37,626 bases of DNA from a virus, in IMG/VR virus record IMGVR_UViG_3300047551_000892, positions 1-37,626 of that record. One strand, given 5' to 3'. Position 1 is the first letter of the stretch. Every line of letters begins with the position of its first letter. The translations under genes were made by a program, and so were the position numbers. The notes under the pieces are model-generated. The model was given only the letters and a program-made list of their open reading frames with translations, ran no database searches and was not told the DNA's origin. Positions 13,997 through 21,080 of this stretch are shown piece after piece.

Positions 13997-14646
13997 CAAC
14001 TCCAATGACCGCGTTATCTTCGTCAACGATAACGCACAGTGAATTCGTAAGGCTAGTCACAAGCACAAATACTTATACGTTTTGTTCTGCTGCCGCATCC
14101 ATTACGGTTTCGGGCATTACGTTTACAGGGTTAGGCAGCCTTCTTTCTGTTGGCGACGTTCAGAGAGACTTAAAGGCAACCTCTGATGACATGCTTATAA
14201 CGTTGATCGGTATAGACCCGACAAACGTTGCTCTAGTTCTTGCAAACAACATTAAGGGCTCAACCGTTGAAATCTGGCGCGGCTTCTTTGACTCTAATTA
14301 TCAAATCATCACAAGCCCAACCACTCAATTTTTTAAGCGCTACCAGGGCATTGTTAACAGCGTAAGCCTGAATGAAACCTTTGACGAAAACAACCGATCG
14401 CGAACGGTTGCTTGCTCAATTGCTTGCGCTTCGTTCCGTACGATCTTGGAGAACAAGATCTCAGGCATAAGAACGAATCAAAATACATGGCGAGCGCTTT
14501 ATTCGACAGATGCAAGCATGGATCGAGTCGATGCAATTGCAGGGCAATACTTTGATTTCGGATCGCCTCCAAAAGGCGGCGGCTTGTCTGATCCTAATTC
14601 TGGAGACCAACCTAATGTTTATGAGCAAGATCTAACTGGTATATGA
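13993..14646 (+). CDS. tail hub/DUF2163-like minor tail protein
   Basis: The 217-residue protein starts at a GTG overlapping the previous stop (GTGA); an ATG at 14005 is an alternative four codons in. The sequence TYTFCSAAASITVSGITFTG, then LLSVGDVQRDLKATSDDM and GSTVEIWRGFFDS, resembles the DUF2163/hub-type tail proteins of gene transfer agents and siphoviruses. These lie between the distal tail protein and the tip protein. The C-terminal 60 residues are Cys/Ser-rich then Gly/Pro-rich (FGSPPKGGGLSDPNS). It probably forms part of the tail tip ring that the J-like protein docks on. Family assignment is moderate. Confidence 0.6.
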   Translation: MTTPMTALSSSTITHSEFVRLVTSTNTYTFCSAAASITVSGITFTGLGSLLSVGDVQRDLKATSDDMLITLIGIDPTNVALVLANNIKGSTVEIWRGFFDSNYQIITSPTTQFFKRYQGIVNSVSLNETFDENNRSRTVACSIACASFRTILENKISGIRTNQNTWRALYSTDASMDRVDAIAGQYFDFGSPPKGGGLSDPNSGDQPNVYEQDLTGI

Positions 14647-15080
14647 GATACGCGACAAAATACGACATGCCTCATTTGGTTGAGATGATGAAGGCATACG
14701 CAAACGAAGCAGGGATAGAAACACTAAAAAACAACCAGAACGAGAGTCACGTTCGATCTTTATTTTATGAAATGTTAAAGGGGCGCGGCTTTGTTTTGGT
14801 AGACGATCAGCTTCGTGGATTTATAGCTGCCTACATCACAAGAAACTTTTGGAACAATAGCGTCAGAGAGTTACACGAGGTTGCTTGGTGGGTAGACCCA
14901 GAGTATCGAAGTACATCAATTGGCGGGAGGCTCTGGTTAAGGTTCAACAAGCTAGCTCAGGATTTGTTAGACCAAAAAAGAGTTCAGATTGTTTGTACAA
15001 GCCTTATGCCTACAAGCCCAGAGATTGATTACACACGATACAAATTTAAGCCATTGCAAGCAACATTCTTTAGAGAGTAG
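14643..15080 (+). CDS. GNAT-family N-acetyltransferase inside tail module
   Basis: The 145-residue protein has a GNAT fold. The N-terminal MRYATKYDMPHLVEMMKAYA is the typical first strand-helix. FVLVDDQLRGFIAAYI gives strands 2-3. HEVAWWVDPEYRSTSIGGRL carries strand 4 and the acetyl-CoA pyrophosphate loop; R-S-T-S-I-G-G resembles R-x-x-G-x-G/A but is not exact. The C-terminal FKPLQATFFRE closes the fold. The enzyme would move acetyl from acetyl-CoA to an amine. It lies, with ATGA coupling, between the hub and tip genes. A possible target is a tail protein or a host factor; neither can be read from the sequence. Confidence 0.82.
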   Translation: MRYATKYDMPHLVEMMKAYANEAGIETLKNNQNESHVRSLFYEMLKGRGFVLVDDQLRGFIAAYITRNFWNNSVRELHEVAWWVDPEYRSTSIGGRLWLRFNKLAQDLLDQKRVQIVCTSLMPTSPEIDYTRYKFKPLQATFFRE

Positions 15081-15083
15081 ATC

Positions 15084-18000
15084 ATGCCAGCCTCAATCAT
15101 TGTCGCCGGATTAGTTGAAGCAGGTGCATTTGCAGCAGGTAGCCTTGGCGCAATGGCGGCTACGGCTGCGATCAGGCTTGCAACCTCGGTTGTCGTTAGC
15201 AGGGCATTCGGAAATAAAAACTCAAACGCTATAGACCCTGGCGCTCGGCAGCAATTGCCACCAGCGGCAAATCTTTCTATCCCGATAGTCTACGGCGATG
15301 CTTATCTTGGCGGGAATTTTGTTGATGCGGTTTTGTCTACCGATCAAAAAACAATGTATTACGTTCTGGCAATTTCAAGCATCAGCGCAAACGGCCAGTT
15401 CTCTTTTGATACAACTGATTTTTGGTACGGCGACAGACAAATTACTTTTGACACGACAGATCTGACAAAGGTTGTTTCGCTTACGGATGGCAGCGGAAAC
15501 CCGCAAACGAACATCAACGGTTACATGTACATCAACTTGTACACGTCAACCAACGCGGGAGTTATCACGCCAATCAATGGATCTGCCCCGAGCGTTGTAA
15601 TGGGCGGATCAGACATCAGCGCATCGTTACGCTGGCCTGCTTCTGGCCGGCAGATGAACGGATTGGCTTTTGCTATTGTCAAACTGATTTACAACCGAGA
15701 TGCAGGAACGACGGGTTTGGAGCCCCTGACGTTCAAATGCTCGCAATACCTAAACGGAACGGGCGCGGCAAAGCCTGGGGATGTTTGGTATGACTACATG
15801 ACAGACACGAGGTATGGCGCTGGCATGACGGGATTGGTTGACTCTGCAAGCGCTGCTGCTCTTAATACTTATTCGGATGTTGTTCTTTCGTTCACAAATT
15901 CATCCGGCGGAACAAGTACGCAGCCCAGGTACAGGATCAACGGAGTTTTAGATACGGCTCGGCCAATCCTAGAAAACGTTGAGCAAATTATTGAGGCTTG
16001 TGATTGTTGGATGACCTACACGGCTGCTACCGGCCAATGGTCTGTTGTCGTCAACAAGGCTGAGACATCTTCGTTTTCTTTTAACGATACAAACCTTATC
16101 GGCGACATAAGAGTTAGTACAACAGACATCAATCAGCAGATCAATCAGATAGAAATTGAATTTCCAAGTAAAGACGCAAGAGATCAGCCTGATTTGGTTT
16201 ACATGGCGCTTTCGTCTGGCTTGTATGCAAATGAGCCTCCGAATCGAGAAACCTACAAGATGGAGATGGTTAACGATTCGGTTCAGGTTAAGTATCTTGC
16301 AAACCGTAGGCTTTTACAGTCACGCGAAGATCTGCTTGTTTCTATAACCGCTGCCTATCCAGCTATTCAGGTAGATGCTGGAGACGTTGTAGATATTACA
16401 AACACAGACTATGGATGGACAAACAAGCTCTTTCGTGTTTTCAAGGTTAACGAAGCGACCACGCCAGATGGAGGTCTTGGCGCAACGCTTGATTTAGTTG
16501 AGTATGCTGCAAGCGTTTACGCAGATCCTCCGCCGGGAACTATTGCACAGTATGCAGAAGCTCCGCCATCTAGCATCCCTTCTTCGCAGTACATTTCTGC
16601 CCCAGGAACGCCAGTTCTTTATAACGTGGCTCCTTATGCCCCTGCTCCATGCGCTGACCCTCCGGTTTTTAGCTTTTATTCGGATGCTCCCGCCACAGGC
16701 CGAGTTTCCCTCATGTCGCTTTATTACACAACGGTTGCAACGCCAACTAATAGTGACTGGAGCTTAATAAAAACATCTAGAACATTAGACGGAACACCGT
16801 TTAATCCCAATGTATCTGTGGTGTTTACAAACATCACGCTTCCTTCTGGAACGTACTATTTCCGAGCGATTGCTAGCAATGAAAGCGCTTCATCTGTTAG
16901 CGGAACCTCCTCGGCATACGTTTGGGATACAAGCGTAAGAACGGTAACGCTTGCCTCTACCGCTGTTCAATTTATAACCTCATCTGCTGGCGTTATTTCC
17001 CCGGCTTCTATAACTTTCACGGCTACAAGCTCGCTTAGCTCGCCAACGTGGGCATGGCGAGTAGATGGGGTTCTTCAGGCATCGACGACAAACACGTTTG
17101 TTCTTTCCGCGTTTGCTCCTAGTACAGCAAAAACAATATCGGTTACTGCCACGCAGGGTAGCTGTACTGCTTCGAGCTCAATGATCATTTCGAGCATCAG
17201 TGACGGAGCCGTAGGCCCAACCGGTCCCGCCGGCGGTCCTACCGGCCCCACGGGTCCGATCGGTCCAACCGGTTCCGGAAGCGGTCCCACAGGTCCCACC
17301 GGTGCCACCGGCGCCGCTTCCACAGTCGCCGGGCCCACAGGCCCTACCGGTGCCACCGGCCCATCCGTTACGGGCCCAACAGGGGCAGCGTCTACCGTTC
17401 CCGGCCCCACAGGCCCCACCGGTGCTCAAGGAAATATTGGCGCTACAGGCGCAACCGGTGCTCAAGGCCCAACCGGTGCCACCGGTCCGGTTTCCACCAC
17501 TCCCGGCCCCACAGGACCAACGGGCCAGCAAGGCATGGCTGGGCCTACCGGTGCTCAGGGCCCTCAAGGCAATACCGGCCCTACCGGTCCAGCCTCAACA
17601 GTCGCAGGCCCTACCGGTCCCACGGGTGCTCAAGGCAATGTTGGCGCAACAGGGCCACAGGGCAATATTGGCCCCACCGGTGCCACCGGTGCTGCTTCCA
17701 CCGTCCCTGGCCCTACTGGTCCGACCGGTGCCGGTGGCCCTACCGGTCCGGCTTCTACAGTTCCCGGGCCTACGGGTCCAACCGGTGCCGCCTCCTCCAT
17801 CGCCGGCCCCACGGGTCCCACTGGAGCCGCGTCCACGGTTCCTGGGCCCACTGGTCCCACCGGTGCTTCTGGCCTTTCGATTACCGGCCCCACCGGTCCG
17901 CAGGGTAACGTCGGCCCGACGGGTCCCCAAGGCATACAAGGAAATGTTGGCCCCACGGGTCCAACAGGCGTTCAGGGAAATGTTGGCCCTACCGGGGCGC

Positions 18001-18776
18001 AAGGTTCCCAGGGCCCAACCGGTCCAACCGGTGCCGCCTCCACCGTTCCCGGCCCTACCGGTCCGCAGGGCGCTACAGGCCCAACCGGAAGCAACGCAAC
18101 CCCTGGAGGCGTAAACACAAGCATTCAATACAACAATTCTGGCGCTTTTGGCGGATCTGCCGATTTCACTTGGAACGGCTCGACATTGTTTGCAAAAAGC
18201 GATGTGAAACTTCAGAAGAACATCCCCGAGATCTTGTTGAGGTCATCCGGTGATGTAAAGCAATATTTCATAAGCGCAAACATCAGCGACACAGTTGACG
18301 GAGGCGTTGTCATAGGGGCTGGAGCTAGCGTCAATAGCGGAACCGCATACTTTACGGTTACTTCTGCTGGTAATGCTGTTTGCGCTGGCGTGTACTCGCA
18401 AAACGTAGGCGGAACGAATCGAGACGTTTATGTAGACAACACGGGGTTGATTGGTTACGTCAGCTCATTACGCGAAACGAAAACGCAAATCGCAGAGATG
18501 CCAGATTGTTCTTGGCTTTACGCTCTCAATCCGGTTACATTTTTTTATAGAGCAAAAGATAAGGATGGCAACCTAACCGACGAAAAAGATGGGGAGATTG
18601 CGTACGGTTTGATTGCGGAAGATGTTGAGATCGTCAATCCTGATTTGTGTTATTACGATATTGTTGACGGGAAAAAAGAGCTTCGCGGCATCAACTATTC
18701 AAAACTTATTATTCCTCTTCTTAAAGAGCTAAAACGTCTCAATGCGATTGTTGCTAAACTTATAGATAAGCCATAA
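15084..18776 (+). CDS. tail tip protein with collagen-like stalk and S74 autoprocessing chaperone
   Basis: This 1230-residue protein has several parts. A hydrophobic N-terminus (about 3-40) leads into a J-like tail tip region to about residue 500, starting [20 protein letters not shown]. Fibronectin/Ig-like beta domains follow to about 705. A collagen-like Gly-Pro-Thr repeat spans about 709-1003. A short head domain comes next, and residues 1127-1230 form a C-terminal S74 intramolecular chaperone. In [10 protein letters not shown] the second Ser (1128) and Lys1133 are five residues apart, like the Ser-Lys dyad of endosialidase-type chaperones. [19 protein letters not shown] is the conserved core. 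The chaperone trimerises the fibre and is released by self-cleavage. This protein probably makes first host contact. Confidence 0.88.
17205..18090 (+). repeat. collagen-like Gly-X-Y repeat tract in tail tip gene
   Basis: About 295 codons are dominated by Gly-Pro-Thr/Gly-Ala-Thr triplets with regular interruptions of the type [13 protein letters not shown]. At DNA level the unit is GGCCC-N-ACCGGT, so the hexamer ACCGGT recurs many times. The repeat is imperfect in third positions, so it is an old repeat rather than a recent slippage product. A triple-helical rigid stalk is the expected product. Similar tracts occur in the fibre gene at 19347-21080, giving long stretches of DNA similarity that could allow recombination between the two genes. 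Confidence 0.9.
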
Positions 18777-18867
18777 AATAAAAAAAAGACAAAATATCCG
18801 CCGTCGCGTATCTGTGAGTTCATAGAACGCGTTACTTACCGAGTTTTGGGAAAGGCAGGGTAAAGCC

Positions 18868-19350
18868 ATAGCTATCTTTAATCGTAATACGCTGACACAG
18901 GTTAGCGGATTCGACAATCAAATTATTGCCGGTGAGCTGGTATACAACCAGAAAACTTACTGGAATCTGACGCTAAATAATTCCGACGGTACACCGCGCA
19001 ATCTGACGGGCGCTACTATCACAAGCCAAATCATCCGGCGGCAGCTCTCAAACGTTCGTGACTCTCGATATGGGCTTACGTTTGACATAGCTGACTACAC
19101 GCCTCCTCCGTCTCCTGTAAGCCTAACAATTACCAATCAGAATCTTTCTGGCGGATCTTTTACGCTGGTCATTGACGAATCCGCGTGGTCTGTTCTTTCG
19201 ACCGATACGCAACTTGATATAAACGCTTCTAACCCTGTCGGGTTCTCTGGAAATATTACTGTCGCATTACCCGCAAGCGGTACGACTCCGGCGCAAGATC
19301 TCATCATCTTCTTGCTATTTTTGGTTCGCTCTGACGGAGTTACAAATTGA
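18868..19350 (+). CDS. fibre-associated protein with apparent ATA start
   Basis: A 160-codon frame runs from ATA at 18868 to TGA at 19348-19350. No ATG, GTG or TTG occurs in it before 19312. A TAG at 18823 limits it upstream. With ATA read as Met the protein begins [20 protein letters not shown], a convincing fibre-type N-terminus. It continues [20 protein letters not shown], with strands of an Ig-like or BppU-like tail domain ([20 protein letters not shown]). AGGCAGGG lies 8-10 bases upstream of the ATA. Its stop overlaps the TTG start of the next fibre gene. Either ATA is used, an ATG was mutated to ATA, or the base is a sequencing error. Confidence 0.72.
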
Positions 19351-21080
19351 GTACGACAGTTACAGGCGCAAATCAGATTACGTTAACAATTGACCAAGGC
19401 GTAATCGGCCCCACCGGTCCCCAAGGCCCTGCCGGAGGTCCCACAGGCCCGACGGGTGCTACCGGTGCCCCGGGTTCTCCTGGCGGTCCGACCGGCCCCA
19501 CCGGTCCCACGGGTTCCGCATCGACAGTTCCCGGCCCGACAGGTCCCACCGGTGCCGCCGGAGCCTCGGTTACTGGCCCAACCGGTGCTCAGGGTAGCGC
19601 TGGCGCTACGGGCCCTACTGGTCCGGCGGGCAGCGGAACAAACATTTCTGTTAGCAATGCAGGGGTTCAGATTACATCTGGGCTTACGTCTCTGAATGTG
19701 ACGGGCCCGGGCGCTACGGCTACGGCGGTTGGTGGCGACGTAACGGTTACTGTTTCTGGTGGTGGCGGCGGCGTTGGCCCTACTGGTCCTACCGGTGCCA
19801 CCGGTCCCACGGGCGCTTCCGTTACGGGCCCAACAGGAGCCGCTTCCACGGTTCCGGGGCCTACGGGACCGCAAGGCATTCAAGGCGTTGCTGGCCCTAC
19901 CGGTCCCACGGGAGACCCCTCTACGGTTCCTGGGCCCACGGGAAGTACTGGTCCAACCGGGGCTTCTGTTACCGGCCCCACGGGTCCCACCGGCCCTGCC
20001 GGAGGCGGCGGATCTGCGATTACAGTAAAAGACGAAGGAACGACGCTTACAACGAACGTAACGTCTTTTGACTTTACCGGAGCTGGCGTAACCGCTACGG
20101 CTGTGGGCGATGCGGTAACTGTAAATATTTCTGCTGGAGCTGGGCCGACGGGACCCACCGGGCCGGCTTCTACGGTTCCCGGCCCTACTGGAGCCACCGG
20201 CGCTACCGGCGCTGCTTCGACAGTTCCCGGCCCCACCGGTCCGCAGGGCAGCCAAGGAGTTGCAGGTCCGACAGGCCCTACCGGTGCTGCGTCCACCGTT
20301 CCAGGCCCGACGGGTGCCACCGGCCCCGTCTCAACAACTCCCGGGCCTACGGGTCCAACCGGCCCCGCCTCTGCTATTGGAACTGGCTTTCAAAGCTACA
20401 GCTACACGGGCGACGGAACAACAACAACGTTTGCTGCAACCGGCGGAATTACCGCGTTGTCTGTTCTTGTTTTGGAAAATGGCGTTTCGCAAGTTCCAAC
20501 ATCCGATTACACGGTTTCGGCTGGCAATGTGGTTTTTGGCGTTGCTCCTGCTAGCGGTGTTGGAATCAATATCAGGGTTCTCGACGGGTATCAGGGCCCA
20601 ACCGGTCCAACCGGAGCCGGTGGAACCGGCCCGACGGGTCCTACCGGTGCCCAGGGCGCTGCAAGTACGGTTCCTGGGCCCACCGGTCCCACCGGTGCCC
20701 AAGGGGATGTTGGAGCCACAGGCCCTACCGGTGCTGCCTCTACGGTTGCAGGTCCCACGGGTCCCACCGGCCCTGCAGGCGGAGGAGGTTCATCCATATC
20801 CGTTAGCGACGAAGGTACGTTACTAACCTCTGGGGTTACCTCATTCAACTTTACTGGCTCGGGTGTTACGGCTACCGCTGTTGGTACGGATGTAACGGTA
20901 AACGTCCCTGGCGGCGGTGGGGGAGGGCCTGCAACCATATTGGAAAGCGCGTTAACGATTTCCAGTAACTACACGGTATCAACTGGCTACAACGGTTTAT
21001 CGGTTGGCCCTGTCACTATTTCAAGCGGCATATCGGTTACCGTCCCAACAGGTCAGGCTTGGATGATTCTTTATTCTTAA
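19347..21080 (+). CDS. collagen-like tail fibre protein with three repeated beta modules
   Basis: The 577-residue protein starts with TTG (TTGA overlap with the previous stop). It begins [20 protein letters not shown], then alternates Gly-Pro-Thr collagen tracts with beta modules. Three modules of about 45 residues are related: one starting [20 protein letters not shown], one starting [20 protein letters not shown] and one starting [20 protein letters not shown]. Each ends with a TATAVG..VTVNV-type strand. A different insert, [20 protein letters not shown], lies near residue 346. The C-terminus has a beta domain starting [20 protein letters not shown]. It is most likely a trimeric fibre of stiff stalks joined by small beta nodules. 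Confidence 0.85.

Follow-up and report, generated by a model that had tools for sequence, protein, structure and literature searches.

How does a phage structural gene come to begin at ATA, and is it translated from that codon? The question is raised by positions 18868 to 19350 of the window, the 37,626-nucleotide stretch of viral DNA analysed here (IMG/VR record IMGVR_UViG_3300047551_000892), where an earlier note made from the sequence alone described a 160-codon fibre gene without a usual start codon. The frame is as that note described it: it is open after the TAG at 18823–18825 up to the TGA at 19348–19350, its first in-frame ATG, GTG, or TTG is a TTG at 19312, a purine-rich AGGG lies upstream at 18857–18860, and its stop overlaps the start of the next ORF. 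Our reading, to which we assign a probability of roughly 0.8, is that this gene, a putative tail collar gene, is translated from AUA and that this codon is a side effect of a homing endonuclease gene (HEG), which in relatives is inserted exactly at the gene start. The features of the region are listed in Table 1.

Table 1. Features of the collar locus in the window (positions in the 37,626-nucleotide stretch; a point marks a feature given without strand).
Feature	Position	Strand	Basis or remark
Upstream tail/fibre gene with collagen-like repeats	15084..18776	+	Weak S74 peptidase match
Leader hairpin (predicted)	18805..18831	+	Shared, with compensatory changes, by relatives of the ATG, GTG, and ATA types
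Approximate junction of the putative deletion between TTACCGAGT and TTTTGGGAAAGG, HEG body absent	18844..18845	.	Window/L005 alignment
Extended Shine-Dalgarno GGGAAAGGCAGGG	18848..18860	+	-13.1 kcal/mol predicted for pairing to a betaproteobacterial 16S tail
Putative HEG 3' end remnant AAAGGCAGGGTAAAGCCATAG, would read KGRVKP*; predicted to act as ribosome-binding site	18851..18871	+	Same tail in HEG-bearing relatives; L005 alignment
Probable ATA initiation codon within ATAG	18868..18870	+	Homologue start position
Probable tail collar/adaptor gene, 160 codons plus TGA, start ATA	18868..19350	+	Open frame, homologue alignment, predicted Ig-like fold
Downstream collagen-repeat tail fibre gene	19347..21080	+	TTG start overlaps collar TGA

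IMG/VR contains more than 400 relatives of the collar gene. Because homologues at 60–99% identity span all 160 residues of the window protein and pairwise dN/dS is 0.04–0.07, the open frame is not a product of chance. These dN/dS values, obtained for the ATA alleles, resemble those of ATG alleles, and the reading frame is unbroken in every ATA allele; the gene is under purifying selection. The comparison of homologous N-termini that the earlier note had proposed placed full-length relatives in alignment with the window protein from its first residue. Among the first 81 homologues, the codon aligned with the window ATA was ATG (32), GTG (29), ATA (15), or TTG (5). Phage P19250A (Methylophilaceae host) encodes a 72.5% identical protein with ATG at the same residue; a megablast search of phage records with the 10-kb region gave no match. 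A second search, launched from a more distant ATA member, brought the distinct set to about 130, and the de-duplicated tree set comprised 101 ATG/GTG/TTG, 29 ATA, and 1 ATC loci out of 131, in which the 30 of 131 is not a frequency, some loci having been collected by leader pattern. The leader pattern search, in which start-codon bases 1 and 3 could be any nucleotide, recovered 27 homologues, 26 with ATA and one with ATC but none with ATG, GTG, or TTG; its lone ATG match was an unrelated gene. With homologue starts aligned here, no usual alternative in the frame, and purifying selection on the protein, AUA is well supported as the true start of the gene, as the earlier note had suspected. It would presumably be decoded by fMet-tRNA; a phage-encoded tRNA that would read AUA as a start was rejected, as neither the window nor any of 24 ATA loci has a tRNA gene.

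Start codons also vary among the ordinary alleles. Switching between ATG, GTG, and TTG is found in one half of the gene tree (for example, TTG in L036, L045, L047, and L048, and GTG in L044 and L049), and the other half is nearly all ATG; this switching is possibly an escape from the endonuclease considered below.

The product itself is probably not a fibre, as had been supposed. Its predicted fold is Ig-like, and its best PDB matches in Foldseek were tail-tip chains of DT57C/T5, with E values of 1.9e-6 to 2.8e-5 and a TM of about 0.5; the T5 chain matched appears to be p132, judging from chain length and PMC10038345. On this predicted fold, an Ig-like tail collar/adaptor of the T5 p132 type is the more likely identity. 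The T5 collar p132 anchors the side fibres (PMC10038345), and a collar role fits the place of the gene before fibre genes. Close relatives carry entirely different genes behind the collar gene, which suggests modular fibre exchange, while in the window's half of the tree these genes still overlap the collar stop by TTGA. Further upstream, immediately 5' of the long tail gene, the ORF at 14643–15080 of the window looks like a GNAT acetyltransferase gene.

In 16 distinct loci, a HEG of 157–168 codons (~160) lies directly 5' of the collar gene. The collar start behind it is ATA in 14 of the 16 and ATC in the other 2, and the HEG is present in 0 of 101 ATG/GTG/TTG loci; a search with the HEG protein contributed three further loci, two with ATA and one with ATC. 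The encoded protein carries a YW...GY[IV]GV motif and an NPNFGKFG element, has R, E, and N residues at conserved positions, and has a C-terminal part resembling a helix-turn-helix. Its first half is 35–44% identical to annotated phage homing/intron endonucleases (E to 6e-14). The match to Pfam GIY-YIG (E 0.011) fell below the Pfam cut-off, that to a homing-endonuclease profile was likewise subthreshold, and the HEG profile matched no PDB sequence. Comparison of the predicted fold placed the I-TevI catalytic domain at rank 2 (probability 0.80; E 0.71, not significant), the most plausible match. As part of the whole explanation, the gene is probably a free-standing GIY-YIG-like homing endonuclease gene, whose product would be active as an endonuclease. 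Related endonuclease genes were observed in other settings, namely between tail genes of Methylophilales phage MEP301 (L316, 1471–2052), where the junction is TAATG and the downstream ATG is kept, and between the terminase large subunit pieces annotated 40A and 40B of phage K1E (L315, 1486–2019).

The HEG stop overlaps the collar start (ATAG) in some loci and precedes it by 7 or 12 nt in others; with these positions (+1, -7, and -12), each of the three frames is used by the HEG with respect to the collar gene, a variability that favours reinitiation over frameshifting. In all 16 HEG-bearing relatives, the stop thus overlaps the start or falls within about 15 nt of it, a spacing suited to termination-reinitiation. 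The window lacks such spacing; its upstream tail gene stops 91 nt before the ATA, too far away for direct coupling.

Near-identical empty and occupied alleles occur at this one site, and the empty sites are intact. The leader and ATG of the HEG equal those of empty-site relatives, with ...accgagtgagggaac followed by ATG in the occupied locus L005 and ...accgagtgagggaac followed by ATG in the empty locus L004, and behind the HEG the collar gene re-opens at ATA/ATC after a GAAAG..GGGTA segment within the HEG end. Alignment of the window with L005 revealed that both flanks match, that 464 nt are missing, and that TTTGGGAAAGGCAGGGTAAAGCCATAG from the HEG end is kept, so that the last ~21 nt of the HEG remain in the window; a comparable gap of 461 nt separates L274 from L286. 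Bases 18869–18871 of the window (TAG) correspond to the stop of the putative former HEG frame, overlapping the ATA. The HEG-less loci of the L222 type retain the first bases of the HEG (AACAGGATGTC) as well as its tail, and both HEG ends are visible only at these loci; L274 and the window retain the tail. At least three different junctions occur among HEG-less ATA loci. The tail motif coincides with ATA/ATC in 30 of 30 loci versus 0 of 101 others (12 independent pairs on supported branches), a motif defined after the data were seen, unlike HEG presence; among the matches listed, the bare motif also matches many unrelated places. One HEG-less scar leader, at a contig end (L107, 27–54, minus strand), carries ATC, the sole ATC among the scars.

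Since remnants are found at HEG-less loci and no HEG lies anywhere else in the window record, loss of the HEG with its last bases retained is the simplest history. By parsimony, the window class would thus have arisen by HEG loss rather than from a leader that pre-dated the HEG. The interval given in the earlier note holds for the gene but leaves out the upstream feature that would account for its start. A translated mini-ORF ending at the conserved TAA (-7) was also considered and rejected for the window class; leaders of the L008 type have no start codon for it, and its TAA is part of the HEG tail.

A tree of 131 rows, built on the collar gene without its first three codons, showed the ATA/ATC alleles scattered among ATG/GTG/TTG alleles, with 18 switches, at least 12 of them forced by supported branches; a single clade for ATA/ATC was rejected (p 6e-6). 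The body of the window gene is nearest to the ATG allele L004 (96% nucleotide identity), and the bases just after its start match those of HEG-bearing L005 instead. In sister pairs that differ in start type, the mismatch is 0.24 in the first 15 nt versus about 0.05 in the body, an excess in agreement with the expectation for a cassette with short co-conversion; pairs in which both members start with NTG also show a start-proximal excess, although a weaker one (0.13). This pattern suggests that a HEG/ATA cassette spread horizontally with co-conversion of its flanks. The G-to-A change from ATG that had been offered as an alternative is correct in a sense, but it was not an isolated mutation, as the ATA would have arrived within the homing endonuclease cassette.

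To compare ribosome sites, we used a betaproteobacterial 16S tail, which we take to be ACCUCCUUUCU. Pairing of the Shine-Dalgarno sequence was predicted at about -13 kcal/mol in HEG-less ATA loci, -9.2 in HEG-bearing ATA loci, and a median of -6.6 in ATG loci, values that hold for this assumed tail; with the E. coli 16S tail, the advantage shrinks to -8.3 versus -6.4. A host search in genomes returned two metagenome-assembled bins only, which are probably misbinned phage contigs. In the leader hairpin, the stem sequences differ among relatives, with compensatory changes at 6 of 8 predicted pairs, and an Rfam search found no family for it.

Other origins of the ATA were weighed against these data. 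One base separates ATA from ATG, and an error of sequencing or assembly at 18870 would be enough to create it; however, dozens of independent contigs with a distinctive shared leader also have ATA here, and over 30 IMG data sets contributed ATA/ATC contigs, which excludes error for all practical purposes. The rarity of AUA initiation, together with a CTG or ATC just upstream in some members (e.g., L005 and L254), could instead point to a true start elsewhere, with ATA an ordinary Ile codon. We regard this as very unlikely: most members, like the window, offer no upstream in-frame ATG, GTG, or TTG, many have in-frame stops at -12 to -24, the codons upstream of ATA are not conserved, every NTG homologue starts exactly at the ATA position, and the codons after the start vary synonymously while codon 1 stays fixed as ATA or ATC. 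Still less credible is a collar protein made by frameshift or readthrough from the upstream gene. The HEG and collar genes do abut or overlap in HEG-bearing relatives, but the fusion was rejected on the varying frame of the HEG; moreover, a conserved slippery site is absent, and in the window a TAG in the collar frame lies within the 91 nt that follow the upstream gene. It is also highly improbable that the ATA alleles are silent and another gene supplies the collar function. In reporters, AUA initiates weakly (PMC13009471), but the ATA frames are intact, selection on them is as strong as on ATG alleles, and the window record has no second collar copy.

The remaining alternative is selection for ATA itself, apart from any HEG history: a start made weak on purpose and sensitive to IF3 would keep the amount of collar protein low. 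Its appeal comes from S. aureus, where AUA/AUU starts with an extended Shine-Dalgarno sequence give about 10–30% of AUG expression (PMC13009471), and from the HEG-less alleles, which still have ATA and among which the leader pattern search found no reversion to ATG with a window-type leader. Low collar dosage is not required, however, because close relatives start near-identical proteins at ATG, GTG, or TTG, and ATA/ATC is always accompanied by the HEG or its tail. We consider such selection unlikely as a separate cause; it may act together with the HEG.

We thus favour an AUA start derived from HEG insertion, a reading built on start-position homology, the linkage of ATA with the HEG, the remnants, repeated exchange, and purifying selection. 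The HEG would insert at the collar start and take over the collar leader and ATG, and the collar gene would re-open behind it at ATA/ATC, with a new purine-rich ribosome site in the HEG end. Ribosomes ending at the HEG stop would likely reinitiate at the nearby weak start; a Shine-Dalgarno sequence is known to aid reinitiation near a stop codon (PMC2268962). In the window lineage, the HEG body would have been deleted, leaving the last ~21 nt and the ATA, and initiation would now occur de novo, aided by the long Shine-Dalgarno sequence. Several reasons may be proposed for ATA/ATC in place of ATG: in the overlapping class ATAG supplies the HEG stop, the altered start may resist the endonuclease, or it may lower expression. 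A tentative and rather doubtful extension is that the HEG recognises the ATGGC start region and installs ATA/ATC as a cleavage-resistant version, that resistant HEG-less ATA alleles spread by gene conversion under endonuclease pressure, and that GTG/TTG may be independent escape variants.

The arrangement has parallels in known systems. Like the free-standing GIY-YIG HEGs of phages (T4 seg genes, K1E gp40.5, and MEP301 gp20; PMC2988022), the HEG described here is probably GIY-YIG-like, and it is intergenic and placed beside conserved genes, with neighbour overlap, possible translational coupling, and apparent co-conversion of flanks. In T4, however, it is the upstream gene that several HEG starts overlap, whereas the HEG of the present locus occupies the start of its downstream neighbour; that neighbour re-opens at ATA/ATC, whereas its counterpart in MEP301 has retained ATG. 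The AUA/AUU starts of S. aureus ccpN, infC, and cvfC1 (PMC13009471) share a conserved non-canonical codon and an unusually strong Shine-Dalgarno sequence, but those genes are bacterial, and here AUA belongs to a phage structural gene and is linked to a mobile element. As in ATGA/TGATG termination-reinitiation (PMC6728339, PMC2268962), an upstream stop overlaps or closely precedes the downstream start; the difference lies in ATAG with its non-canonical start and in the absence of the upstream partner from the window. T5 p132 and the N-terminal domain of TP901-1 BppU resemble the collar protein in predicted Ig-like fold, similar length, and adjoining fibre genes, but no sequence similarity to them was established. 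In the literature covered, which leaves out most subscription journals, we found no report of a HEG turning the start of a neighbour into AUA.

For annotation, gene finders restricted to ATG, GTG, and TTG will overlook the collar gene of any phage bearing the cassette or its scar. More broadly, the locus provides a natural series of AUG, GUG, UUG, AUA, and AUC starts before nearly one protein, tied to whether a mobile element is present, absent, or reduced to a remnant. This series makes it possible to test how a weak start is rescued, by reinitiation or by a longer Shine-Dalgarno sequence, and how a HEG enters a gene-dense phage genome without destroying its neighbour. If ATA/ATC should indeed be a cleavage-resistant version of the start, a selfish gene would here rewrite the start codon of a virion gene.
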